Origin: Atribacter laminatus
GTDB lineage: Bacteria; Atribacterota; Atribacteria; Atribacterales; Atribacteraceae
Direction of reading: 5' to 3'
Assembly (NCBI RefSeq): GCF_015775515.1
Contig: NZ_CP065383.1
Span: 744,001 to 808,000, forward strand
DNA: 64,000 nucleotides
The notes under the pieces are model-generated. The model did not search any database, had not been told where the DNA came from, and was given only the letters and a program-made list of their open reading frames with translations. Both the position numbers and the translations under genes were made by a program. Position 1 is the first letter of the stretch; the number at the start of each line of letters is the position of its first letter. This document shows positions 8,730 through 22,813 of this stretch, in pieces.

Positions 8730-9872
8730 TTATTTCGAATTATTAAATTTCTGAATCGATCGTTCAATCCGCTTCCCAATGCCCGGGTCACGACGTGCGT
8801 CTACATATTGACCCTCTTGGAGAGAGAGAGCCGGAGCAATATATGATATCACTATGAGCCCTTGCGAGCCCATTTTTTGAAACAATTGTTGGTAATAATG
8901 ATCAATTCGATTATCCTCAAGATTAAAATCGCCAACCATATAAACCAGTTTTTTTTCGGCAAGAGCATGCCGAAGACGAGCAGCCTCATCGAGATGGTCT
9001 AAATTGAGGTTATGGATAGCTATCAATCCGCGAGTCGATAGAAAATTTTCAATGTGTTGATTTGCACAGCCACAAAAATGAATAACTCCTCCCCCAAAAG
9101 CTTCAAGAATCTGACTATTATAAGGAACTACGAATTCACGATAAAGATCTTTTCCAAAAATAACCGAATCATCATCGGAAATCCAAACGCCCCCAAGGCT
9201 TCCGGGGATTTTTACACCTAAAACATAGGCATCATCATCCAGGCTCTGACCGGCAACTTCTTTTTGAACACCAATCCATTCAATCAAAGAATCGGTAACC
9301 AGCTGCATTAAATCATGGATCATCTCGGGATGATCATGCATCCAGTAAATCATTTTATCGTATCCGACAATCTGCAAAGCGGTCGTCAATGGCCCCTGGC
9401 AATCGGTAACCCCCACGGGAAAATCAGTGTTTTCTCGCATATATCGAATGGTGTTGAGAACCCGAGGCATGAGCCCATCTTTCAAAGGATTCGGCTTTTT
9501 TAAATCTCGTATTTGCTGAACATCTCGAATGGTCGGCAAATCAACAGCCGGATCCATTTTGTCCAGGAATTTTACATCAATCCCAAAACCCGAGGCAAGA
9601 ACTCCTGTTCCAAACCAGGGCATTAAAAAAGGAATATAAACATCATGGTACTCTCGCATATGGGTTTCAATTTTTTGAGCTTGGTAATTGGTCATGATTG
9701 AAGGATCTTCGCTACAATATCCATCGGGAATTTCCTCCGATAAAGCACCGAACAACCAATAATTTACATCGTAAATGATATAAGGTGCTTCTTGGTTTTT
9801 AAATTGAAATGCTTCTCTGATACGATTTTCCGATTGAATATTTCTCTCCCGATATCTTTCTGAAGTATTCAT
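8730..9872 (-). CDS. Uroporphyrinogen decarboxylase-family protein (MtaA-like branch)
   Basis: 380 residues, URO-D fold. The conserved zinc-site start IHFCG (H265, C267) of methylcobamide:CoM/MtaA-type relatives is present. The second Cys that completes the site in MtaA is not evident; the corresponding region reads GLIVISYIAPALS. Not a heme enzyme by context: no hem genes, and it lies between a sugar permease and a sugar kinase. Relatives can transfer methyl groups to or from corrinoids, but no corrinoid protein is encoded here. Function in sugar metabolism is unknown. A second paralogue lies at 13712-14977. Confidence 0.75.
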   Translation of the reverse strand: MNTSERYRERNIQSENRIREAFQFKNQEAPYIIYDVNYWLFGALSEEIPDGYCSEDPSIMTNYQAQKIETHMREYHDVYIPFLMPWFGTGVLASGFGIDVKFLDKMDPAVDLPTIRDVQQIRDLKKPNPLKDGLMPRVLNTIRYMRENTDFPVGVTDCQGPLTTALQIVGYDKMIYWMHDHPEMIHDLMQLVTDSLIEWIGVQKEVAGQSLDDDAYVLGVKIPGSLGGVWISDDDSVIFGKDLYREFVVPYNSQILEAFGGGVIHFCGCANQHIENFLSTRGLIAIHNLNLDHLDEAARLRHALAEKKLVYMVGDFNLEDNRIDHYYQQLFQKMGSQGLIVISYIAPALSLQEGQYVDARRDPGIGKRIERSIQKFNNSK

Positions 9873-9912
9873 TTGTACTCTCCTTAAAGTTTGCTATTTT
9901 TCCATAAATTTT

Positions 9913-10893
9913 TTATAAAAGACCCTTTCTCTTTTTGCTTAACGTATCAATCATTACTGCAACTAAAAGAGTTGTCCCAATAACAAAAGTATTCCAATAA
10001 ACATCAACCCCTAAAAGGGTAAGAGAATTTTGAATTAAAGCCATCAAAAGGGTTCCCAAAAAAGCTCCCGCAACCGTTCCTTCTCCGCCCTGTAAACTTG
10101 CACCACCAATAATAACCGCAGAAATAACCCTGAGCTCCAAACCAGTACCTGCCGATACCGATGCCGCTCCTAAGCGAGCCGTCATAATGATACCAGCAAA
10201 TGCTGCTAATCCACCGGCAAGGGCATAATTAAATACTTTCATTTTACTAACATTAATTCCCGATAACAAAGCCGCTCTTTCATTACCACCAATATAATAA
10301 TTTTGCCGAAAAAATTGGGATTTTCGCAGTAAAAAATCTCCTATAATAACCAAAATAATGGCAATTAGAATTGGATACTGAACATTAAAAAACTTACCTT
10401 GACCTAACATTTTAAAAGAATCAGGAAGACCGGTAATATTTTTCCCTTTGGTTATCACCAACAAGAGACCCCGAACTAAATTAAGCATTCCTAATGTGGT
10501 AATGAATGGATTTATCCCAATTTTTGATACTATCAAACCATTACCCATACCAATTAAAACTCCTAAGCCAATTCCTACCATAATTGCTAAAATAACTGGT
10601 ATTCCCCTGGACATCAACATTGCTGCCATTGCTCCGGTAAAACCAACGGTTGAACCCACAGACATGTCGAATCCACCTGAAACCATTAAAACTGTCATTC
10701 CAATAGCAATGATACTTTCAATCGATAGACTTAAGAGAGTGGCTAGAATATTCCCCGAGGTAAAGAAAATCGGTGACAATATAGTCATAAGAACTACGGC
10801 ACCAATAATAATGAATAAAATCATGAATTCATGTATTTCAGTTAAGCTTCGCCATAGGTTTCGATGATTTTTGGTTTGCTCTCGTTGACTCAT
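9913..10893 (-). CDS. Sugar ABC transporter permease (RbsC-like)
   Basis: 326 residues, multi-spanning, RbsC family. GGFDMSVGSTVGFTGA in the first half and VIIGGASLQGGEGTVAGAFLG near the end are family signatures. The only permease of this operon, so it presumably forms a homodimer. AAAGGAG precedes the ATG by 9 bases. It starts 24 bases after the ATPase gene. Confidence 0.92.
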   Translation of the reverse strand: MSQREQTKNHRNLWRSLTEIHEFMILFIIIGAVVLMTILSPIFFTSGNILATLLSLSIESIIAIGMTVLMVSGGFDMSVGSTVGFTGAMAAMLMSRGIPVILAIMVGIGLGVLIGMGNGLIVSKIGINPFITTLGMLNLVRGLLLVITKGKNITGLPDSFKMLGQGKFFNVQYPILIAIILVIIGDFLLRKSQFFRQNYYIGGNERAALLSGINVSKMKVFNYALAGGLAAFAGIIMTARLGAASVSAGTGLELRVISAVIIGGASLQGGEGTVAGAFLGTLLMALIQNSLTLLGVDVYWNTFVIGTTLLVAVMIDTLSKKRKGLL

Positions 10894-10917
10894 TCGATTT
10901 CTCCTTTAAGAGTTTTC

Positions 10918-12432
10918 TCAAGTTAGCGTGTTCATTTTTCTGACGCCTGTTGCACAAGTAATGACTCTTTCTTCGGTTGCTTCATTTTGATTAAATTCTC
11001 CAACGATTCGTCCACCCCTCATTACTAGGATACGATCACTTACACCTAATATCTCAGGCAAATCAGATGATATCATTACAATACCAATTCCTGATAAGGT
11101 TAAATCACGCAAAATTTTATAAATTTCCCTTCGGGCTCCCACATCGACTCCTCGGGTTGGCTCATCAACAATTAAGACGTTTGGGTTAATCCCCACCCAC
11201 ATGGATAACAATACTTTCTGCTGATTTCCACCCGATAGGTTTCTGACTTTTTGAAAAACTGTCGGAGTAATAATTTTAAATTGCTCTTGTGATTGTTCAG
11301 CAAAAGAAGTAATTTTATTTTCATCAAGAATATTCATTCTCTTTATAAATCTTTTCATATCAGGTGCTATCAAGTCTTCTCGATAACTCATCTTTAAAAA
11401 AAGCCCTTGTTGTTTTCTATCCTCTGTTAAGTAGGCAATTCCTTCTTGGATGGCATCGCCGGGGGAATGTATTGATAGAAATTTCCCATTGAGCTTTATG
11501 CTTCCCTCAGAAAATGGCTCTAATCCAAATATTGCTCTGGCTAATTCTGTTCTTCCCGCTCCAACTAACCCAGCTATTCCTAATATTTCTCCTCTTTTCA
11601 GAGAAAAAGATACTTTGGTGAAGATTCCATCTTGAGAGAGGTTTTCAACCTGAAAATATTCCTCACCAATTTTTGAATTCCGTTCTCCATACATATTTTG
11701 AATTTCTCGGCCTACCATGAGCTTTACAATCTGTTCCTCATTTACTTCAGAAATGTTATGAGTATCTATATATTTCCCGTCCCTAAAAATAGTTACCCGA
11801 TCAGCAATTTCAAATATTTCTTGAAGATGATGAGAAATATAAACAAATGATACTCCTTTTTCTTTTAAGAGCTTAATGTTCTTAAATAGAAGTTTGGTTT
11901 CTATCTGGGTTAACGAAGAAGTTGGCTCATCCAGTATGAGAACTTTTGGATTATAGGAAATTGCTTTAAGAATTTCAACGACTTGCTGCTCAGCAACCGA
12001 CAGTCCTTTTACTGGAGTTCGAGGGTCAACCTCCATATTAAAATATTTTAAAACCTCTGATGTTTTTTGATACAAAAGATTCCAATCAACCAATTTCATG
12101 CGCTTAAGAGGTTGACGATTGGCAAAAATATTTTCAGCGATAGAAAGATTTTGTACTAAACTCAATTCCTGATAAACAACGCTTATTCCCTCCTGAGATG
12201 CATGGTAAGGGTTTTGTAATTTAACTTTTTTTCCTTCTATGAATACATCTCCACTATCAGGTTTATACACTCCTCCTAAGATGTGCATTAAAGTACTTTT
12301 CCCAGCTCCATTTTCACCCACCAGGGCATGGACTTCACCCTTCTGTAGTTGAAGCTGAACTCCATCAAGAGCTCGAACTCCGGGAAAGTTTTTTACGATA
12401 TCTCGTGCTTCTAAAATTATTGATTTATTCAT
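10918..12432 (-). CDS. Sugar ABC transporter, double ATPase (RbsA-like)
   Basis: 504 residues, two ATPase domains. Domain 1: Walker A GENGAGKS (39-46), Walker B VLILDEPTSSL. Domain 2: degenerate Walker A (GLVGAGRTE), signature LSGGNQQKVLL and an intact Walker B VLIVDEPTRGVD, the pattern usual for RbsA/XylG/MglA. The ATG at 12430-12432 is preferred because GGAGGAATTC lies directly upstream; an in-frame TTG at 12442-12444 is part of that ribosome site. Same operon as the permease and the binding protein at 12568-13539. Confidence 0.92.
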   Translation of the reverse strand: MNKSIILEARDIVKNFPGVRALDGVQLQLQKGEVHALVGENGAGKSTLMHILGGVYKPDSGDVFIEGKKVKLQNPYHASQEGISVVYQELSLVQNLSIAENIFANRQPLKRMKLVDWNLLYQKTSEVLKYFNMEVDPRTPVKGLSVAEQQVVEILKAISYNPKVLILDEPTSSLTQIETKLLFKNIKLLKEKGVSFVYISHHLQEIFEIADRVTIFRDGKYIDTHNISEVNEEQIVKLMVGREIQNMYGERNSKIGEEYFQVENLSQDGIFTKVSFSLKRGEILGIAGLVGAGRTELARAIFGLEPFSEGSIKLNGKFLSIHSPGDAIQEGIAYLTEDRKQQGLFLKMSYREDLIAPDMKRFIKRMNILDENKITSFAEQSQEQFKIITPTVFQKVRNLSGGNQQKVLLSMWVGINPNVLIVDEPTRGVDVGARREIYKILRDLTLSGIGIVMISSDLPEILGVSDRILVMRGGRIVGEFNQNEATEERVITCATGVRKMNTLT

Positions 12433-12499
12433 GAATTCCTCCAATAACGCTGAGTATCACTGATATTCCTGCACTCTTTCCTCAATCGAATAAATAACC

Positions 12500-12549
12500 A
12501 ATAATCATAAAGGAGCGTGATAATGGATACACGCTCCTTTATGATTATT
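12500..12549 (-). other. Long perfect intergenic hairpin (no U-tract)
   Basis: Arms 12500-12519 and 12530-12549 are exact reverse complements (20 bp) around a 10-base loop. They lie between the binding-protein stop and the ATPase start, the same place as the unrelated 21-bp hairpin at 3143-3186. No T-run follows on the transcribed strand. Likely stabilises the upstream binding-protein mRNA or limits read-through. Confidence 0.8.
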
Positions 12550-12567
12550 AATTTATCTTTGGTTAGA

Positions 12568-13539
12568 TTAATCTCTCATAAAATATTCATAATTCGATTC
12601 ATCTACAATAACAACACCAGTATCTATAACAGCTGGGGTTCCTGAGATCTTAGCTTTTACATTGTCGCTGGAAATTGGAATGTCATAATTATAAAGATTA
12701 AATAGAATCTGAGTACCGTAAAATGGCATTAAAGCGGTCTGCTGAGCGACCGACGCTGAAATGATCCCGTCTTTAATGTATTCTAAAACATCATTTCCTC
12801 GATCCATGGAAACAATCTTAACCTGACCTGCTTTCCCGGCTTCATTAACCGCGGTAGCAGCCCCAGCCCCACCAGCAGCTTCAACACAACCAATACCAGC
12901 TAAGTCTGGGTACTTTTGAAGAAGAGCTGCAGCAGCTTGAGCGGCAACCGTTGGGTCTGACTGAGTATCAGCAATCTGTACTATTTCAATATCAGGATAT
13001 TGAGCTAAAGCATCTTTATATCCAACAATTCGTTCTTCAAGGTTTGATTGGCCTGGTCTGGTCATTATTGCAACTTTCCCTTTTTCACCAACGAGAGAAG
13101 CAAGCTTTTTGCCTCCCTCAAAACCTGCTTGATAGTTGCCCGTTCCAACAAAGGCAATTCTTTTTGAACCTGGTAAATCGGCATCAAGTGTAACAACTGG
13201 GATACCTGCATCAATGGCTTTATCGACTATCGCGTCGAGTGAAGGTTCAAAACCGACTACCAATATCCCCTGGGGTTTTTTGGCAATTGCCTGTTCAAAT
13301 GCGGTGATCATGGCTGCCATATCAAAATCAGCCGGTCCAACATACTCAGTTTTTACTCCCAAATATTTTCCAGCTAATTCCATTCCTAATTTATGGTCAT
13401 AAAAATAATCTAAACTTCCTAATGCTGAAACTTCAATATAAAGTTGTTCAGAAATTGGTAATTTTTCTTCAGCAAACGCCGGAATTATGAAACTGAAAAC
13501 ACATACTGCTACCATGATAAAAATCATCATCTTTTTCAT
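12568..13539 (-). CDS. Sugar ABC transporter substrate-binding protein (RbsB-like)
   Basis: 323 residues. The signal peptide MKKMMIFIMVAVCVFSFIIP, with cleavage likely after AFA (about residue 23), exports it. The mature protein is a type I periplasmic sugar-binding protein: GILVVGFEPSLDAIVDKAID and IPVVTLDADLPGSKRIAFVG match the first lobe, and IISASVAQQ the hinge region. GAGGTGG sets the start. First gene of the operon with ATPase, permease, URO-D-family protein and kinase. The ligand is unknown. Confidence 0.92.
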   Translation of the reverse strand: MKKMMIFIMVAVCVFSFIIPAFAEEKLPISEQLYIEVSALGSLDYFYDHKLGMELAGKYLGVKTEYVGPADFDMAAMITAFEQAIAKKPQGILVVGFEPSLDAIVDKAIDAGIPVVTLDADLPGSKRIAFVGTGNYQAGFEGGKKLASLVGEKGKVAIMTRPGQSNLEERIVGYKDALAQYPDIEIVQIADTQSDPTVAAQAAAALLQKYPDLAGIGCVEAAGGAGAATAVNEAGKAGQVKIVSMDRGNDVLEYIKDGIISASVAQQTALMPFYGTQILFNLYNYDIPISSDNVKAKISGTPAVIDTGVVIVDESNYEYFMRD

Positions 13540-13711
13540 TTTTTTCCACCTCGATTTATTTTTTTCTAAAACTGCACTTCATAAATTATTCAGATTTCAC
13601 CTCCCAACCCTATTTTTATCATAACCATAAATATAAATTAATGATTTGCAAATTATTTATATTTTAAGAACAATAATATTGCTTATTGAATTTTTCATTC
13701 AGTTAAATTTT

Positions 13712-14977
13712 TTAACGGTTTTCTTGAAAGGTCTCAAAAAAAGCGAGTAAATTTTCTACCGGAATTTTTGCTTGAATATTATGGACATTAGCAAAAACAA
13801 ACCCTCCATTGGGCTTAAAAGTATTCATCAAATATCCGACTTCTTGACGAACCTCCTCAGGAGAACCAAAGGGAAGAGTTGATTGGGGATTCACTCCCCC
13901 TCCCCAAAACGTAAAGTCTGAACCAAAATGTTCTTTAAGTTCTTTCGGGTCCATTTTGGCTGCAGAAACTTGCACCGGATTAAGAATATCAAAACCCGCT
14001 TCTTTTAAATCAGGGAGAAGATCAAATACTGAGCCACAGGTATGGATGAAGACTTTCCACTGAGTATTTTGGTGTATCCATTCATTCATTGCTTGGTGAT
14101 AAGGTTTAAAGAGTTCTCGATAAAGAGCTGGTGAAATAAATGGACTATTCTGGGATCCAAAATCAGTCCCCGATAGGACGATAACCTGAATTCTCTCACC
14201 AACAGCTTCATAGAATAATTTAAGATTCTTTAAACCAATTTCAGTCATCCGAGAAAATACCTCTTTTAAAAAATCCTTACGAGTCATGAGGGAAACATAC
14301 CACTCCTCAACTTCTCTAATCCCTTGAGGATTTTTCATACCTGGTCCTGGAACCAAAGCAATATCACCTAAGTTAGTTCCAGGTACTCCACCAAAAACCA
14401 CAGCGCGGTCGGTTTCCTCGTAGAGTCTTTTTGCCTCTTTTTCATAGTAAGCCAGGTCTTCTCCGTTCATAATCGAATATTCTTCAACTTGGTCTTCCAC
14501 TTTCAGCTTCGATTCATCAACAATTGGCTTTTGCCGCATAATAGAATCGTGATAAAAGCCGTCTTTCGGCATTCTCATTGAGGCAGGTACCGAACGATCA
14601 CCTTCAGGATACTGAAGAATATCACCATTCGGTTCTGGTATAGTATTAAATTTCTCCGGAACCAAAACTGGTGTTCCATCAAAAAAAGTCCACGGTTTCC
14701 AATTTTCATTTTTAAAGCCGAAGAAATTTTTGATAGATGGTAATGGAACTGTATCAATTCCCAATACATCCCGGAGATCATCGTCTACTTCTCCAAGCAT
14801 TTGAAAGGGATCAAACACTTTTACTGGGTCATTTTCCCCGGTTAACCCCAAAGCAACTTTTAACTTATGAAGACTACTTACATGAATACCACTAATGAGT
14901 GTTGACCCCAAATCCAAAGGAACTTTATCCGGAGTTTGGTGGTTGATTGCAGCTAAAACTCTCTCTCGAGAAGTCAT
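13712..14977 (-). CDS. Uroporphyrinogen decarboxylase-family protein
   Basis: 421 residues. It opens MTSRERVLAAINHQTPDKVP, the standard N-terminus of non-heme URO-D-family proteins. The zinc-type motif IHTCG lies about three-quarters along, and a later FVFANVHNIQAKIPVEN resembles the sugar-cluster subgroup of this family. The ATG at 14975-14977 is chosen because AAAGGGG lies 10 bases upstream. It sits 172 bases upstream of the binding-protein gene, so it may lead or regulate the same transport cluster. The reaction is unknown; methyl transfer is possible but no corrinoid partner is nearby. Confidence 0.75.
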   Translation of the reverse strand: MTSRERVLAAINHQTPDKVPLDLGSTLISGIHVSSLHKLKVALGLTGENDPVKVFDPFQMLGEVDDDLRDVLGIDTVPLPSIKNFFGFKNENWKPWTFFDGTPVLVPEKFNTIPEPNGDILQYPEGDRSVPASMRMPKDGFYHDSIMRQKPIVDESKLKVEDQVEEYSIMNGEDLAYYEKEAKRLYEETDRAVVFGGVPGTNLGDIALVPGPGMKNPQGIREVEEWYVSLMTRKDFLKEVFSRMTEIGLKNLKLFYEAVGERIQVIVLSGTDFGSQNSPFISPALYRELFKPYHQAMNEWIHQNTQWKVFIHTCGSVFDLLPDLKEAGFDILNPVQVSAAKMDPKELKEHFGSDFTFWGGGVNPQSTLPFGSPEEVRQEVGYLMNTFKPNGGFVFANVHNIQAKIPVENLLAFFETFQENR

Positions 14978-15021
14978 ATTATATATCCCCTTTCTCAATC
15001 CTTCTATTATTCATTAATAAA

Positions 15022-16095
15022 TTAAATAGATTTTTTAATCCTCTCAATTTCATCATCGGTCAATTCCTTATCAAAACTACGAATTCCTGATACCTTAAAG
15101 CCGTGTTTTAAGGCAAGGGTACTTATTTCTTTCACACGTTCAACTTGCACTTCTTTCCCAAGAGTAAAATCTTCAAATCGGCCTTCTAAGGTCAAGATCA
15201 TCGTTTCCGACATACAAGCATAAGCTTTACCTGGTGGATATCCAAAATTCATTCCAAATACAGGCTCTCCAGGCACATCGACAATTCCGCCTTCAATAAC
15301 TAAAATATCCTTTCGGGACTGCATGATTTCTTTAGCTACATTTCGAGGTCTTGACACATCACAAACCACGGCTCCACGTTCAATCCAATGACTCTGAATT
15401 ATGGTCTCAATAGCCGAAGTAACGGTTAAAATCATTCGACATCCTTTGATCCCTTGTTCGATATCGGTAAATTTTTTCACTGGGTGAGAAGAAAATTGTT
15501 CAACTTCCTGCTGGACATTCTGAACTTTTTCATGATCACGCCCAATAATCCTAACTTTCTTTTTTTCTCGTGCTAAAATGAGAGCACAGGCCCTCCCAAT
15601 TGAACCAGTAGCCCCTACTATTGCGTACTCTTCATTGGCAAAGTCGATTGACATCTTTTGGGCTGCAATCATAGTTGCTTCCAAAGCAGTTGCTACAGTA
15701 TAACTATTACCGGTAGTAACGGCAATATTCAAGCCTTTTTTTGGTGTAATCCCCCCATCACCGGCTACTGATGTGAAAGCACCTAAACCAATAATTTGAG
15801 CTCCGAGTTTTTCTGCCAATAAACCGCACTTATGGATTTGCTTCGATACAAAAGGAAATGGGTATTCAATGAGAACCCTTGAAGTCATAGGTAGACCCAC
15901 GAACCACCCTTTGATTTCCTTCCCAGTCGCCCGTGAGCGAATCCCGGTTACATGGGATAAAACGAACGGCGATATGTGAGAGGCAAGATACTCAACTGAC
16001 CGGTTTGGTAAAAAACGGAGAATTTTCTTATGATCCTTGATGTCTTGAGCGTTCATTGCGTGGATTATAAAAGCAAAGCTATCCAAGAAACTCAC
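15022..16095 (-). CDS. Acyl-ACP reductase-like (AAR/COG5322) dehydrogenase
   Basis: 357 residues from a GTG at 16093-16095 (AAAGG 6 bases upstream), which begins the family-like segment SFLDSFAFIIHAMNAQD. Motifs seen: GLGAFTS (103-109), TTGNSYT (127-133), a Rossmann loop GATGSIG (161-167), a segment VIEGGIVDVPG, and YACMSETMILTLEG with Cys at 294. As I recall the cyanobacterial acyl-ACP reductases, these are their landmark motifs in the same order, including the catalytic cysteine that carries the acyl thioester. The inferred reaction is NAD(P)H reduction of an acyl-ACP or acyl-CoA to aldehyde. An upstream extension to 16161 is possible but lacks a ribosome site. Next to an SRPBCC protein and an aminotransferase. 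Confidence 0.7.
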   Translation of the reverse strand: MSFLDSFAFIIHAMNAQDIKDHKKILRFLPNRSVEYLASHISPFVLSHVTGIRSRATGKEIKGWFVGLPMTSRVLIEYPFPFVSKQIHKCGLLAEKLGAQIIGLGAFTSVAGDGGITPKKGLNIAVTTGNSYTVATALEATMIAAQKMSIDFANEEYAIVGATGSIGRACALILAREKKKVRIIGRDHEKVQNVQQEVEQFSSHPVKKFTDIEQGIKGCRMILTVTSAIETIIQSHWIERGAVVCDVSRPRNVAKEIMQSRKDILVIEGGIVDVPGEPVFGMNFGYPPGKAYACMSETMILTLEGRFEDFTLGKEVQVERVKEISTLALKHGFKVSGIRSFDKELTDDEIERIKKSI

Positions 16096-16365
16096 CTTCA
16101 ACCTTTCAATACAGTGATAAGTCAAAAATCTCAAAACATAAACTAAAACGATAAAATGCAAACACCTTCATGCTCATTCACCTTTTGAATCGGAAGAAAT
16201 TATTTTTTTAAAGCTCTATTTGCTTCTCTCTTCAAATTCCCTTTTCCTCTCTTGTTTTGCAGGATATTTTAAAATTCATGATAAATTGCCTCATTTTCAC
16301 TTAATTTATTGAATCAATTTAAAATTCTATTCTATCTCCTTCACAATTTCATCATTAGGCTGGAT

Positions 16366-16806
16366 TTACTCTTGATCGATCATTTGTTTTAAAGCTTTTA
16401 ACATTGCTTGAGCATTTTCTAACATCTTCTTTTTAAGAAAAGCATTAATCAAAGCCCCTACCAGAGGAAGTCCTAAATCATATTCAATCTCGAGCTCCAC
16501 TCTTGTCTCCTTATTGGACAAGGGAATAAATTTCCATATGCCTTGGTAGACCTTAAAATCTCCTTCTAGAATAAAAAAACGACATTCTTTTTTTGTACCA
16601 TCCCATATATCTCGTTCAGTCCACTTCACTTCTCTCCCTTGAAAGCTGCCTTTCCAAAAACTATCAACTTCGTTCTGATTTTTTTGGAGAACTCTCACCT
16701 CTTGAAGGTCTGGAAGAAATTTTGCTAATTGCTCGATATCCTGAGCTTCGAGGAACACTTTTTCGGCTGACTGTTGAATGGTAATAACATCATTGACTTT
16801 TCCCAT
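16366..16806 (-). CDS. SRPBCC-family (COQ10/polyketide-cyclase-like) protein
   Basis: 146 residues with the START/SRPBCC layout: N-terminal VITIQQSAEKVFLEAQDIEQLAKFLP, antiparallel strands (VRVLQKNQNEVDSFWKGSF, WTERDIWDG, RVELEIEYDLGLP), and a long C-terminal helix with LKKKMLENAQAMLKALKQM. Such helix-grip domains bind hydrophobic ligands such as lipids, quinones or polyketides, and may be carriers or enzymes. AGGAG 11 bases upstream sets the ATG. It lies 5 bases after the aminotransferase gene, so it is in the same transcript. A lipid-binding role is inferred from its position beside the acyl reductase. Confidence 0.75.
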   Translation of the reverse strand: MGKVNDVITIQQSAEKVFLEAQDIEQLAKFLPDLQEVRVLQKNQNEVDSFWKGSFQGREVKWTERDIWDGTKKECRFFILEGDFKVYQGIWKFIPLSNKETRVELEIEYDLGLPLVGALINAFLKKKMLENAQAMLKALKQMIDQE

Positions 16807-16811
16807 AGCCT

Positions 16812-18074
16812 TTATTCTCCTCCTATCTCATCTAATAATGCTTGCACTGAAACCAGAGATTCGGCAAATCTGGATAAAACTATATCTATCTCCTCGTAAG
16901 ATATTGTCAGTGGTGGCTCAATACGAATCACCGTTGGATTGTTAAGAGTATAAGCCACTAAAACATGGCGTTGAGCCATCTCCATTGCTAGCAAAGATGC
17001 GATGTCAGAATCACCAAATTGGATACCAATCAACAAACCCATCCCTCTCACTTCTTGAATCATTCCTTCTGACCCAGCTTGAATCTCTCTAAGACGTTGT
17101 AAAACTTCCTGACCTTTGATCCAGGTTAACTCGGGTATTTTTTCTTCTTGAAGGACTTTTAAGGTTTCTATACCAGCTACGCAACTAAGAGGATTCCCTC
17201 CCAATGTAGAAGAATGAATAAAGGGATTCTCTTCAAATACTTTCCAAATCTCAGCTGTACTGATGAATGCTCCAATAGGGAGCACGCCCCCTCCTAATCC
17301 CTTTGCAAGAGTCATAATGTCTGGCACAACATTAAAATGCTCGCAAGCAAACATCTTTCCCGTTCGTCCCAATCCGGTTTGGATTTCATCCAAAATAAGT
17401 AAAGCTCCCTGTTCTTCACAAATTGATTTTACTTGCTTTAAGTAACTAGGAGAGGGAATAATGATACCTCCTTCTCCCTGTATCGGTTCTAAAATAACCG
17501 CAGCGGTTTTTTTATCTATTGATTTTTTTAAGGCATCGATATCATTAAACGGAACTTGATATATTTCTGGCAAACCAGGCAAAAAAGGCTTTTTATAAAC
17601 TTCTCGCCCCGACAGACTTAAGGAACCCATAGTTTTACCGTGAAAGCTATTTTCTGCCGAAATCAATTTTTCCCGACCAGTATAAAAACGAGCCAGCTTT
17701 AAGGCACCCTCAACTGCTTCTGTTCCACTGTTCCCAAAAAATGAGTATTGAAGATTACCCGGGGTTATCTTGGCTAACATTTCGGCTAAATCAGCTTGAT
17801 GTTTATTAAACAAGGTACGAGTAGAAAGCGGGAGTCGCTCTAATTGTTCCTTAACAGCTTGAACAATTCGGGGATGGTTCCTCCCAACATTGAAAACTCC
17901 AAATCCCCCTAAACAATCAATATATTCATTACCATAAACATCCCATACCTTGGAACCGGCGCTAGTCCATTCTACCGTATCAAGTTGAGCAAATTTATAG
18001 TAACGCGCCAAGCCAGGATTAATATATTTAGCATATTTCTCAATAGTCTCTTCAACAAGCTTTTTTTTGTCCAC
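16812..18074 (-). CDS. Class III PLP aminotransferase (putrescine/ornithine aminotransferase-like)
   Basis: 420 residues, normal for the family. [14 protein letters not shown] (227-240) holds the PLP-pairing Asp229, and TLAKGLGGG holds the Schiff-base Lys258; [18 protein letters not shown] is the phosphate-binding segment. Homologues transaminate a terminal amine or aldehyde (putrescine, ornithine, GABA or longer omega-amines). Beside an acyl-ACP-reductase-like enzyme, one reading is conversion of a fatty aldehyde to a fatty amine; a normal polyamine or amino-acid role is not excluded. It opens the segment reductase/SRPBCC/aminotransferase on the - strand. Confidence 0.85.
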
Positions 18075-18128
18075 TTCTATTTCCCTCCGTGGATTTTTTT
18101 AATTACTCTAAAATATAAATGAGACTCT

Positions 18129-19043
18129 CTATAAATAGAGTAGCCGAGGTTGAATATTTAAGGTATTCATTAATTGTAAATATTCCTCGGGTAAAATATT
18201 ATCAGGATGTTTCTCGAGTATTGATACAAAAATTGCTTGTAAAACATTCGCACCAAAAGAACGCCCGTTCATCTCAGGAGTAGTTGTGATGAGCATTTTG
18301 ACTCCGGACTTCCGAAGAACCTCGATATCATTATTCGTAACAGTATTGGTAATAATAACCTTCCCAACCATATCGTCCGGCATAAATCGATTGATATATA
18401 AAAAGTCACCGGCTACGATGTCAGCTCTTTTAAAAAGATGAGGAGATCGAGTTACTCGTGCTTCTTGACTTTTTCCGGTTGGATATAAAACTTTCAAAGG
18501 AAGACGTCTAAGCACCGGCATCATTATAATGGATAGAAAGCGAAGGGTAGAAAGCCGGGTTAGGGGAATGGGTATTCCTAATGCAAATGGCATATCTCCA
18601 ATCAAAAGCCGACAACCTTGCTGAGAAAGCCCCTCTGCTAACCCATAACGATCCATCCCACTCATAAAAAGGGCGGTTTTCCCTTGTAAATTTAATTTAT
18701 CTTTTTCAACTAAAATTTGTGGAACCTTTCTTTCCCAAGTTTCTTTAAGCTCTCCACCATCAACAATTGGTGTTTTTTTCAAAACTGAAACCATTTTAGC
18801 AATATCAACCACTCGGTATTTATATCGGCCAGCACGGAGGTAAAGGTCAGCACCCCCCAAACCAAAGGCATCAACTTTACCATCCAATTCTCTTAAGATT
18901 TGCATAAACTTTTTTCTATCACCATCAACACCTATTCTTTTAATTTTAATGTTCAAACCCATTAATTCAACTTCAGCTTGGTGGTTACGAAGCGAAGAAC
19001 CCAAACTCACACTAACGACTGTTTTACTTTTCACCACTATCAC
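18129..19043 (-). CDS. Conserved protein, unassigned (sometimes labelled quinate/shikimate dehydrogenase-like)
   Basis: 304 residues from a GTG that overlaps the bactofilin gene by 20 bases. KTVVSVSLGSSLRNHQAEVE and AFGLGGADLYLRAGRYKYR open the protein, and the C-terminal part has ITNTVTNNDIEVLRKSGV and TTPEMNGRSFGANVLQA. I recall similar proteins annotated as quinate 5-dehydrogenase in some Firmicutes, but I see no certain catalytic motif and do not assert that activity. Its place between the aminotransferase and the bactofilin/CoaX genes suggests one operon with the reductase group. Downstream GTGs at 19037 or 19034 could also be the start. Confidence 0.55.
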   Translation of the reverse strand: MIVVKSKTVVSVSLGSSLRNHQAEVELMGLNIKIKRIGVDGDRKKFMQILRELDGKVDAFGLGGADLYLRAGRYKYRVVDIAKMVSVLKKTPIVDGGELKETWERKVPQILVEKDKLNLQGKTALFMSGMDRYGLAEGLSQQGCRLLIGDMPFALGIPIPLTRLSTLRFLSIIMMPVLRRLPLKVLYPTGKSQEARVTRSPHLFKRADIVAGDFLYINRFMPDDMVGKVIITNTVTNNDIEVLRKSGVKMLITTTPEMNGRSFGANVLQAIFVSILEKHPDNILPEEYLQLMNTLNIQPRLLYL

Positions 19044-19383
19044 CAGTCTGGGGGAATGTCAATCCACCCTCAAACGTTGTTCCAGGTTCTATGGCAATTC
19101 CATTTGACATAATTATTCCCGTTATTCGACACGAACTACGACAGATAACTTTTTCTGTATGGGTAAAACCTGCTAAAGTTCCCCAAATCTCTAAGTTTTT
19201 TGCCTGGATAAAGGCTTTTGATTGACCATGTCGGGTAATAATGACATTCACTGAATCAATAGATCCACTAAATTCACCTTGAATCATGACCGTTCCCTCG
19301 CCTTGATAATGACCATCAAGACGAGTTTGATCCCCCAATATTGCGACATCTTTTACACTTTCATGACTTTTGATTAAGCTCAT
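19024..19383 (-). CDS. Bactofilin (polymer-forming cytoskeletal protein)
   Basis: 119 residues, a single bactofilin domain made of short beta-helix turns: VAILGDQTRLDGHYQGEGTV, IQGEFSGSIDS, AKNLEIWGTLAGFT, CRSSCRITGIIMSNGIAIE, then GTTFEGGLTF. Bactofilins polymerise without nucleotide, often at the membrane, and scaffold envelope enzymes. It overlaps coaX upstream by 23 bases and the unassigned gene downstream by 20, so it is translationally coupled to both. A bactofilin inside a putative lipid-modification operon may organise those enzymes at the membrane, but that is inference. Confidence 0.8.
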   Translation of the reverse strand: MSLIKSHESVKDVAILGDQTRLDGHYQGEGTVMIQGEFSGSIDSVNVIITRHGQSKAFIQAKNLEIWGTLAGFTHTEKVICRSSCRITGIIMSNGIAIEPGTTFEGGLTFPQTGDSGEK

Positions 19384-20140
19384 TAATAATTCTCAAACCT
19401 TCAAGAGTAAGTGTTGGATTAAAAAAATCAATAAAATCACAATAATTATGTAGAAATATTCCCCATCCTCCCGTTGCAACGACTCGTGCTTTTGGGGCAA
19501 ATTCTTTCTTCATATTTATAACAATCTCTCTGCATAATCCGATGTATCCATAGAAAATGCCTGAATGCATTGCCTCAACCGTATTACGCCCAATACATTT
19601 ATCCGGGATTTCAACATCAATTCGAGGTAAACGAGCAGTTTTTTCATAAAGAGCTTCTTGGGAAATTCCTATTCCTGGAGCAATTGACCCTCCCAAGTAT
19701 TCACGATTCGCATTAATTGCACAAAAGGTAGTTGCTGTTCCAAAATCGATAATCACTAAGTCACCACCATAAATATGCGCAGCTGCTACAGCATTAACAA
19801 TTCGATCAGCGCCGGTTTCTTTTGGTTCCGCTCTTATTGATAAACCAGTACGAACTCCTGGACCGATCACCATTAATACATTTATCCATTTCTTCTCAAA
19901 CAGTTCACGAAGATTATTGAGGACTGGCGGCACAACGCAGGATATCGCCACTTGATTTATATTTTTTTCCTCAATGCCTTGATCGGCTATGAGTTCTTTT
20001 AGTATATATCCCCATTCATCACTCGTTCGACGCGACGAAGTCGAAACTCTCCAATCAGCTAGAAGCTTTTCGCTATGAAAAACTCCGAAAGTGGTATGGG
20101 TATTTCCAACATCTATGGTTAAAAGCATATTCTTATCCAA
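19361..20140 (-). CDS. coaX: Type III pantothenate kinase
   Basis: 259 residues, the usual CoaX length. Motifs: LLTIDVGNTHTTFGVF (phosphate 1), GADRIVNAVAAAHIYGG (pantothenate and ATP site), DFGTATTF, and GGSIAPGIGIS. Phosphorylates pantothenate in the first step of CoA synthesis; this type needs a monovalent cation and is not CoA-inhibited. The start is either TTG at 20138-20140 (AAGGTGG 5-6 bases upstream) or ATG at 20126-20128, which gives the family-typical MLLTIDVGNT. First gene of the bactofilin/aminotransferase/acyl-reductase stretch; a supply of CoA or ACP arm would fit acyl-thioester chemistry. Confidence 0.92.
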   Translation of the reverse strand: MDKNMLLTIDVGNTHTTFGVFHSEKLLADWRVSTSSRRTSDEWGYILKELIADQGIEEKNINQVAISCVVPPVLNNLRELFEKKWINVLMVIGPGVRTGLSIRAEPKETGADRIVNAVAAAHIYGGDLVIIDFGTATTFCAINANREYLGGSIAPGIGISQEALYEKTARLPRIDVEIPDKCIGRNTVEAMHSGIFYGYIGLCREIVINMKKEFAPKARVVATGGWGIFLHNYCDFIDFFNPTLTLEGLRIINELNQKS

Positions 20141-20841: not shown

Positions 20842-20868
20842 TGGCATAAGGAGGAATGCCTTATGCCA
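20842..20868 (+). promoter_or_regulatory. Hairpin sequestering the transposase ribosome site and start codon
   Basis: TGGCATAAGG (20842-20851), loop AGGAATG, CCTTATGCCA (20859-20868): a perfect 10-bp stem. The Shine-Dalgarno AAGGAGG (20848-20854) straddles the 5' arm and loop, and the ATG (20863-20865) lies in the 3' arm. Folding would block translation initiation, as in other IS elements that limit their own transposase. Confidence 0.7.
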
Positions 20869-22029
20869 TGGACGGAGGTACACAAAGTGGATCTCAGACA
20901 AGAATTGATTTATCGTTATCTCAACAAGGAAAAGGTGACAGATTTGTGTCGAGAATATGGAATCTCTCGAAAAACCGCCTATAAGTTTATTCATCGTTTT
21001 CAAGCCTTTGGTTTGGATGGACTTAAAGATCAATCCCGACGTCCTCATCACCTGGCGGGTCAAACTGATGCCCTGACCGAGCAAATGATTCTGGATACCA
21101 AATTCAAGCATCCCAGTTGGGGAGCTAAAAAGCTCAAGCCCGCCTTGGAAAGACAGTATCCCGATATTGTCTTTCCAGCAATCAGTACCATCAGTGCCAT
21201 CTTATCTCGCCATGGACTGGTGAGATCACACCCTCGTCGATTGAGAAGAAGTGTGCCAACCAGTCAACTTCGAACCAGCCATGAACCCAATGAGATCTGG
21301 TGTGTCGACTTTAAAGGACAATTTCGAACCCAAGATCGGAAATACTGTTATCCTTTAACCATCACCGATCACTATAGCCGGTATCTCCTTGCCTGTGAAG
21401 CTCTTTCCTCTCCCAGCATTCAAGAATCCCTTCCGGTCTTCAAAGAGTGCTTTTCCACATATGGTCTTCCCCAGGTGATCCGCAGTGATAACGGGAGTCC
21501 CTTTGCTTCTCTTCACTCTCCCTTTGGACTCACTCAACTCTCGGTGTGGTTAGTGAAACTCGGCATCATCTTAGAGCGCATTGATCCGGGACATCCAGAA
21601 CAAAATAGCCGTCATGAACGGATGCACCGCACCTTAAAAGAAGAGGCCTGTCAAAAACCAGCCACCAATCTTTTCACCCAACAAGACCGCTTTGAAACCT
21701 TTAAAACCATCTATAACACCGTACGACCCCATGAAGCAATCAACCAAGAAACCCCAGCTTCCTGGTACCACAAAAGTGACCGGCCCTATCCAAAAACCTT
21801 AAGTGATTGTGAATATCCTCATCATACGCTCACTCGTAAAGTCGATTCCTCAGGACGGATTTCTCTTTATGGCAACCGTCTGATCAGAATCAGTAAAGTC
21901 TTTGCTGGTGAACTTCTCGGATTCAAAGACTATACTCATTCCTGGTTAGTTAGTTTCTCTACCTATGATATTGGTATAATTGATAAAAAGACCCTTACTT
22001 TTGAATCAACGGAGATTCAAGATGATTAA
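20863..22029 (+). CDS. IS481-family DDE transposase
   Basis: 388 residues. The N-terminal helix-turn-helix region (VTDLCREYGISRKTAYKFIHRF) recognises the ends. The rve/DDE catalytic domain has WCVDFKGQF (first D), VIRSDNGSPFAS (second D) and HPEQNSRHERMHRTLKEE (E), in the spacing of IS481 and retroviral-type integrases. No stop or frameshift, so it may be active. Coding GC looks higher than in neighbours (about 47% in sampled lines). Translation start: AAGGAGG 8 bases before the ATG, inside a hairpin. Confidence 0.93.
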   Translation: MPWTEVHKVDLRQELIYRYLNKEKVTDLCREYGISRKTAYKFIHRFQAFGLDGLKDQSRRPHHLAGQTDALTEQMILDTKFKHPSWGAKKLKPALERQYPDIVFPAISTISAILSRHGLVRSHPRRLRRSVPTSQLRTSHEPNEIWCVDFKGQFRTQDRKYCYPLTITDHYSRYLLACEALSSPSIQESLPVFKECFSTYGLPQVIRSDNGSPFASLHSPFGLTQLSVWLVKLGIILERIDPGHPEQNSRHERMHRTLKEEACQKPATNLFTQQDRFETFKTIYNTVRPHEAINQETPASWYHKSDRPYPKTLSDCEYPHHTLTRKVDSSGRISLYGNRLIRISKVFAGELLGFKDYTHSWLVSFSTYDIGIIDKKTLTFESTEIQDD

Positions 22030-22300: not shown

Positions 22301-22813
22301 TCATTTTGAAGGGAACTGGTGCTGCAATATTTTGACCAAAGGAAGAACAATTATCGCTGAAAAAATGAGTTCTAATGTTCCATTTAAAGCAATAATTGGA
22401 GCTATCTGTTGTAGGGTAAAATTCCCAAATAAAACAGCTAAACCTAAGACTCCTATTGTATTAACAAAAGTAGCTCCCAAGCTTGATGCAACGATACCAA
22501 CATTTCCTTTCTTCAAACCAGTCCAAATATAAAAAGCAACTACACCAATCAATATTCGAGGAACAAAACAGGCAACAAGATTAACCCCCATGGCGAAGAA
22601 CAAATTCATTGTAGAAAAAGCAAGGATAAGACCAACTAAAGCGCCAACCAAAGGACCACCAATTATACCAGCAACTATAGCTGGTATATGCATCGTCGTT
22701 GCTGATCCTGAGAGATTTGGTACCGGGATTAATCCAATAGGAGTTACACTGAGGATAATAGAAATTGCCCCTAACACACCAGCTAATACTATCTTTTTTG
22801 TTTGTAATTTCAC
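22301..22813 (-). CDS. ECF transporter S-component (vitamin/cofactor uptake)
   Basis: 170 residues, about five to six membrane helices, size and pattern of energy-coupling-factor substrate-binding subunits. ATTMHIPAIVAGIIGGPLVGALVGL resembles the pantothenate/riboflavin-like S-components, but the ligand cannot be named. It needs the shared EcfA/A'/T module, which is not in this window. The start is a GTG at 22811-22813 with GGAGGG upstream. The 161-base leader contains strong stem-loops (see findings), so it may be riboswitch-controlled. Confidence 0.8.
   Translation of the reverse strand: MKLQTKKIVLAGVLGAISIILSVTPIGLIPVPNLSGSATTMHIPAIVAGIIGGPLVGALVGLILAFSTMNLFFAMGVNLVACFVPRILIGVVAFYIWTGLKKGNVGIVASSLGATFVNTIGVLGLAVLFGNFTLQQIAPIIALNGTLELIFSAIIVLPLVKILQHQFPSK

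Follow-up and report, generated by a model that had tools for sequence, protein, structure and literature searches.

A putative acyl-thioester reductase and aminotransferase gene set of Atribacter laminatus, a candidate split variant of the PigE/TamH-type enzyme pair

The enzyme pair and its closest described relatives

A two-step route from acyl thioesters to amines was previously known from pigment and antibiotic clusters. TamH, of tambjamine YP1 synthesis in Pseudoalteromonas tunicata, converts a C12 chain on acyl carrier protein (ACP) to the aldehyde and then to the C12 amine, and is NADH-specific (PMC9594044). PigE, of prodigiosin synthesis in Serratia (4ppm), reduces and transaminates a thioester, and channelling has been proposed for it on the model of glutamyl-tRNA reductase and the aminomutase that works with it (PMC8341465). 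Here we describe a gene set in 64,000 nucleotides of Atribacter laminatus (contig NZ_CP065383.1, positions 744,001 to 808,000; hereafter the window, whose own coordinates are used throughout), comprising an acyl-ACP reductase-like protein (AAR), a class III aminotransferase (AT) dependent on pyridoxal phosphate (PLP), a SRPBCC protein and a conserved protein of 304 residues (p304). The window is part of a single-contig genome of 3.10 Mb, and its G+C content is close to the 38.7% reported for A. laminatus (PMC7736352). Judged by sequence and by analogy, the set appears to be a split, broadly distributed variant of the known pair, and we consider it fairly probable that AAR and AT are consecutive enzymes, that is, the unfused form of the thioester reductase and transaminase joined in PigE and TamH. 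No published description of the set was found in the Creative Commons-licensed literature on alkyl amine lipids in clostridia, 'quinate 5-dehydrogenase' or bactofilin in Atribacter.

The gene set would probably turn activated (fatty) acids into aldehydes and these into amines. In AAR, the Cys would be acylated from acyl-ACP or acyl-CoA and the acyl group reduced with NADPH to the aldehyde, which AT would convert, with an amino-acid donor, to a primary amine; the SRPBCC protein would most likely bind or carry the hydrophobic aldehyde or amine, p304 may be an accessory or a further enzyme beside the reductase, and the chain would most likely be a medium or long fatty acyl. The chemistry from thioester to aldehyde to amine is well supported by analogy because TamH and PigE, fusions of the same domains, carry it out. 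We infer, rather than observe, the reactions (from the homologous fusions), the chain length, the roles of the SRPBCC protein and p304, the direction in vivo and the fate of the amine. The initial annotation of this DNA had proposed the same chemistry, which is sustained by the precedent of TamH and PigE and by the gene linkage described below, together with a bactofilin as scaffold and perhaps an unusual membrane lipid as destination, parts that so far are not (for the scaffold, 0 of 70 loci, see below).

Like TamH, the set combines a class III PLP transaminase with an AAR-like thioester reductase acting in sequence, a likeness taken from the published description of TamH. The order transaminase-then-reductase of TamH is also that of a fusion in one Atribacterales genome (G009) and of the fusions in Bacillota. 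Unlike TamH, which is a single chain, belongs to a secondary-metabolite cluster and uses NADH, the window enzymes are separate, with the SRPBCC gene between them, lie in conserved core synteny and carry residues of the NADPH type. PigE gives the top NCBIfam match for AAR and is among the best for AT; unlike the window pair it is one chain, with reductase and transaminase in the order opposite to that of the TamH-type fusions, and it stands in a separate clade in both trees.

The genes are transcribed from the minus strand in the order coaX, bactofilin, p304, AT, SRPBCC, AAR, all at the positions given by the initial annotation. From the upstream end, the features are:

19361..20140, minus strand: coaX, type III pantothenate kinase (family searches), operon neighbour
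19024..19383, minus strand: bactofilin, 119 amino acids (PF04519), adjoining the set in Atribacterales only
18129..19043, minus strand: p304, 304 residues, no Pfam family, two-domain alpha/beta model
16812..18074, minus strand: AT, class III PLP aminotransferase of the putrescine-aminotransferase/PigE subclass, 420 amino acids (PF00202)
16366..16806, minus strand: SRPBCC (Polyketide_cyc) protein, 146 amino acids (PF03364)
16087..16365, minus strand: intergenic stretch between SRPBCC and AAR, with partial likeness to one relative of the same genus only
15022..16086, minus strand: AAR, AAR-like acyl-thioester reductase, 354 amino acids, TTG start (catalytic Cys, GATGSIG, fold)

The family matches are far above chance for AT, SRPBCC and bactofilin (Pfam) and for AAR (NCBIfam). 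As had been reported, 5 bases separate AT from SRPBCC, and the bactofilin gene overlaps both coaX and p304; these overlaps measure 23 and 20 bases, respectively. The spacing from SRPBCC to AAR, 279 bases in the window, is about 3-30 bases in the majority of other genera. The TTG at 16086 is more likely the start codon of AAR than the position 16095, since relatives begin at MDSFAF; AAGGTGAG lies just upstream of this TTG.

Reductase and aminotransferase residues

We found GLGAFTS, TTGNSYT and GATGSIG in the window AAR, followed by Cys294 (numbered from the start at 16095) within AYACMSETM, the motifs and the order that had been read in it before. In the alignment it falls exactly on the residue of the same number in Synechococcus AAR (SeAAR), and all correctly split rows of the family, like the window protein, have this catalytic Cys ([FY]AC motif) in register. 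A structural comparison with the Synechococcus enzyme, also proposed in the initial annotation, gave for the AlphaFold2 model (predicted local distance difference test, pLDDT, 90) full-length template modelling (TM) scores of 0.77-0.80 to 6jzy and 6jzu, which are cyanobacterial AAR with stearoyl and NADPH, over the three-domain AAR fold; the tunnel was compared at the level of the fold and of a few residues. Catalytic residues and predicted fold support the classification of the window reductase as AAR-like. Its best NCBIfam match is the N-terminal half of the PigE model NF053554 (E 4e-55, 187.5 bits, cut-off 850), and the long-chain acyl-ACP reductase model TIGR04058 scores under its cut-off of 449.7 (E 4e-27, 95.4 bits).

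In fold, Cys294, GATGxIG loop and basic residues for the NADPH phosphate the protein is like cyanobacterial AAR (6jzq, 6jzu, 6jzy). Unlike it, the window protein, about 22% identical, has R73, K80 and Tyr247 replaced, and its partner would be a transaminase instead of aldehyde-deformylating oxygenase (ADO). At the ADO-docking positions R73, R79 and K80 the window AAR has P, K and Q, and the position of SeAAR Tyr247 is Arg in it and throughout its family. The lack of an aldehyde decarbonylase nearby, remarked on earlier, extends to the whole genome, in which PF11266 has no match. The cyanobacterial AAR-ADO alkane route was rejected on these grounds, the genome being without ADO and the docking residues R73 and K80 being replaced.

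In SeAAR the phosphate of NADPH is bound by residues 189, 193 and 314 (PMC7089970). The basic R189, R193 and R314 of that enzyme have the equivalents R189, K193 and K314 in the window AAR. In fused AT-AAR proteins positions 189 and 314 are mostly not basic, in agreement with the reported specificity of the TamH fusion for NADH (PMC9594044). In the stand-alone AARs, the window protein among them, both positions stay basic, and NADPH is the predicted cofactor.

AT belongs to PF00202 (E 3e-109, 365.7 bits, cut-off 30.5), and its Lys258, previously assigned as the PLP lysine of a class III enzyme, occupies the alignment position of Lys300, the PLP lysine in the Escherichia coli putrescine aminotransferase YgjG (4uox), the closest solved relative by sequence; the next distinct solved relatives are acetylornithine/acetyl-lysine aminotransferase and then PigE. 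Like YgjG, AT has this lysine and a hydrophobic pocket, with F91, F180, K183, L419, T332, E243 and R426 of YgjG kept; among the residues aligned in AT are Lys147 (YgjG K183, not Arg), Leu377 (L419), Glu201 and Arg384. Acetylornithine, ornithine and GABA aminotransferases have at the K183 position an Arg for the substrate carboxylate (PMC4244111). AT has Lys at this carboxylate-Arg position and keeps the hydrophobic entrance residues.

The second, far amine of putrescine is held in YgjG by Gln119 (PMC4244111). Unlike YgjG, AT has Arg (Arg86) at this position, as do the Atribacterales enzymes, and Lys or Arg stands there in all SRPBCC-linked ATs examined; Gln is found in nearly all fusions and clostridial stand-alone enzymes, and also in PigE and YgjG. 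A diamine is an unlikely substrate for AT because Gln119 is replaced by Arg or Lys. In addition to lacking Gln119, AT scores 451.1 bits against the putrescine aminotransferase model TIGR03372, under the equivalog cut-off of 658.65; the PigE model NF053554, among the best models for AT, gives 411.3 bits, under its cut-off of 850.

Gene linkage and phylogeny

The order AT-SRPBCC-AAR is constant through Atribacterales and is usually preceded by coaX-bactofilin-p304. AAR was found in 23 of 25 Atribacterales genomes, and the AT subclass has the same distribution once one instance truncated at a contig end is allowed for. Of the two genomes without AAR, G010 (96% complete) has no AT either, and G005 is only 75% complete; the Atribacterota families f5-f7 have neither gene. 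In G009 a single 879-residue AT-AAR fusion, 33-39% identical to the window AT and AAR, stands in place of AT, SRPBCC and AAR, with p304, bactofilin and coaX still adjoining. The gene after this fusion (L037:1-1394) is aldehyde dehydrogenase-like, with a possible role in removal of stray aldehyde.

Outside Atribacterales the set splits into p304-AAR pairs, AT-SRPBCC pairs or AT-AAR fusions. A scan of genome contigs gave at least 576 reductase relatives, of which the best 80 were kept, 70 of them outside Atribacterota; in these 70 loci AT is near the reductase in two and SRPBCC in none. The typical order in Bacillota is coaX-dusB-HTH protein-p304-AAR-greA-lysS (names assigned by eye, with the helix-turn-helix (HTH) domain weakly supported), and in an Alkaliphilus locus (L076) AT lies directly beside AAR. 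A class III AT at E < 1e-60 is present in 22 of 24 AAR-bearing genomes, usually away from AAR and in most clearly stronger than the ArgD-like enzymes.

In the phylum of Thermoanaerobacter, AAR is present in 161 of 249 genomes. The AT subclass occurs in 138 of these 161 and in 6 of the 88 without AAR (odds ratio 82, Fisher p 1e-36, shared ancestry uncorrected), or in 107/161 versus 6/88 with a cut-off that excludes most fusions. More than 12 AT-AAR fusions were inspected in this phylum. In three genomes (G280, G084 and G168; loci L223, L222 and L224) one contig carries, besides a fusion, a stand-alone AAR of divergent sequence next to p304.

In the reductase tree, the Atribacterales stand-alone AARs group as a single clade amid the stand-alone AARs of Bacillota, Armatimonadota and Chloroflexota, the fusions form a second clade, and PigE falls together with a single Bacillota protein that has the PigE domain order. 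The G009 protein belongs to the fusion clade, which indicates by sequence that a Bacillota-type fusion was gained by this genome. In the AT tree, with ArgD-like enzymes as outgroup, the fusions, the clostridial 460-residue enzymes and PigE make up one clade. The trees therefore point to more than one mode of joining reductase and transaminase.

The SRPBCC protein matches PF03364 (E 2.6e-18, 66.9 bits, cut-off 23.4) and scores 44.6 bits against the RatA toxin model NF007999, under its equivalog value of 258. Its orthologues adjoin the same AT subclass in Bacillota. They are rarer, being found in 25 genomes of the Thermoanaerobacter phylum, 24 of which carry AAR; of the 23 matches with good coverage, 21 are no more than 200 bases from an AT of this subclass and the other two within about 3 kb. 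AAR, p304, AT and SRPBCC, the genes whose joint occurrence the initial annotation had put forward for survey, are in this way linked by synteny, fusion, pairwise adjacency, co-occurrence and co-absence. Neither this linkage nor the alignment of the cysteine and the tunnel, the latter as far as fold and a few residues show, refuted the initial annotation.

The most constant neighbour of the reductase is p304, present in 157/161 genomes with AAR versus 29/88 without, at the reductase in 36 of the 70 outside loci, and directly upstream of AAR in many Bacillota and Armatimonadota. Earlier described as of no certain function, it matched no Pfam family on profile search. Its predicted structure (pLDDT 92) is two-domain alpha/beta with weak matches in the PDB to shikimate dehydrogenases, periplasmic sugar-binding proteins and FolD; the top TM among the listed matches, also weak, is 0.46 (TMq), to AAR 6jzq. 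A paralogy with AAR was considered and set aside, since the hhalign profile comparison of the two is not significant and the likeness in fold is weak. Many polar residues are invariant in the p304 alignment, which suggests an enzyme or a ligand-binding protein.

An HTH protein of 170-190 residues with an undescribed C-terminal domain (e.g. L116:6465-6998) adjoins p304 across Bacillota, and is likely to be a dedicated regulator; it also flanks AT in L169 and the fusions of L184 and L194, and was not seen next to the Atribacterales genes. The pair of p304 and this protein persists in some genomes without detected AAR (L227-L232), in which the neighbours of p304 gave no clue to its role; in L229 and L230 divergent, degenerate AAR-like frames follow p304.

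Alternative explanations and neighbouring genes

Several observations weigh against consecutive action of AAR and AT on fatty acyl chains. The Arg or Lys in place of Gln119 suggests that the AT substrate may carry an acidic group. The window AT, like the Atribacterales and SRPBCC-linked ATs, falls outside the PigE/fusion clade. Outside Atribacterales p304 and AAR are the tighter pair, with AT usually at another locus. The AT cut-off was chosen after the score distribution had been seen, and the co-occurrence counts are uncorrected for phylogeny. Lastly, the AT subclass is missing from 23 of the 161 genomes with AAR, so the amine step would not be universal.

The same two reactions may act on an acyl group that is short or has a polar or acidic end, giving an omega-amino acid or another small amine. 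We regard this as rather unlikely, though it would agree with the Lys or Arg at the Gln119 position of all SRPBCC-linked ATs, with the Arg replacing SeAAR Tyr247 throughout the family, and with the housekeeping and cofactor gene neighbourhoods in Bacillota. The fold, however, matches that of long-acyl AAR, and the SRPBCC partner is of the hydrophobic-ligand type. Beta-alanine, the most obvious small product, is itself unlikely: a supply of it for CoA, considered because of the neighbouring coaX, was rejected as neither PanC nor PanD was found in the window genome, and PanD is commoner in Bacillota with AAR (110/161 genomes versus 39/88 without). The host probably takes up pantothenate, since no PanC or PanD was found despite the presence of coaX.

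An improbable alternative is that AAR makes an aldehyde (or alcohol) for another use, for example in an ether lipid, with AT a mere neighbour. The AAR-bearing genomes devoid of the AT subclass would agree with this, as would the p304-AAR layout with no adjacent AT that is usual outside Atribacterales; but the fusions, the in-place replacement in G009, the adjacency in Alkaliphilus and the strong co-occurrence all weigh against it. Equally improbable is the catabolic direction, in which AT would deaminate an amine to the aldehyde and the reductase-like enzyme would oxidise it to the acyl thioester: transamination and acylating dehydrogenation are reversible and the closest solved relative of AT is a catabolic enzyme, but the stand-alone reductases keep NADPH-type residues, TamH and PigE both run toward the amine, and the loci inspected show no recurrent amine transporter or catabolic genes next to the set.

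The formation of amines by AAR and AT remains our preferred reading. A wider proposal, which we advance only tentatively, is that of a core (not secondary-metabolite) pathway for long-chain alkyl amines in Atribacterota, many Bacillota, Armatimonadota and relatives, in which p304 would be an undescribed enzyme. If so, anaerobic bacteria would make lipids or signals with amine groups of a class so far unrecorded. The enzyme pair now appears as conserved, vertically kept genes of anaerobes (138 of 249 genomes sampled in one phylum), accompanied by a conserved protein family with no Pfam entry, p304; should a fatty amine be the product, a lipid or signal class that is common among bacteria would have been overlooked. 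Cultured relatives carry the genes, among them Thermoanaerobacter, Moorella and Sporomusa.

The bactofilin (PF04519, E 2e-16, 60.8 bits, cut-off 27.9) adjoins p304 in Atribacterales only and is near the reductase in none of the 70 loci outside Atribacterota. It is probably a mere neighbour outside the pathway, and its proposed role as scaffold is not upheld. In 38 of these 70 loci coaX is near AAR. An anti-phage role was rejected, since PADLOC gave no match for AAR, SRPBCC or p304.

Upstream of the operon, an integrase-like transposase reading frame (20863-22029, plus strand) lies between coaX and a gene at 22301-22813 that is BioY/ECF-transporter-like by eye; it has no counterpart there in the relatives examined and is therefore probably a recent insertion. 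Directly downstream, 8730-14998 holds sugar-type ABC transporter genes (permease, ATPase and binding protein) flanked by two genes of the URO-D/MtaA-like methyltransferase family, an arrangement kept only within the genus. The mtaA-like gene at 13712-14998 was rejected as part of the set, as it adjoins AAR in the same genus only.

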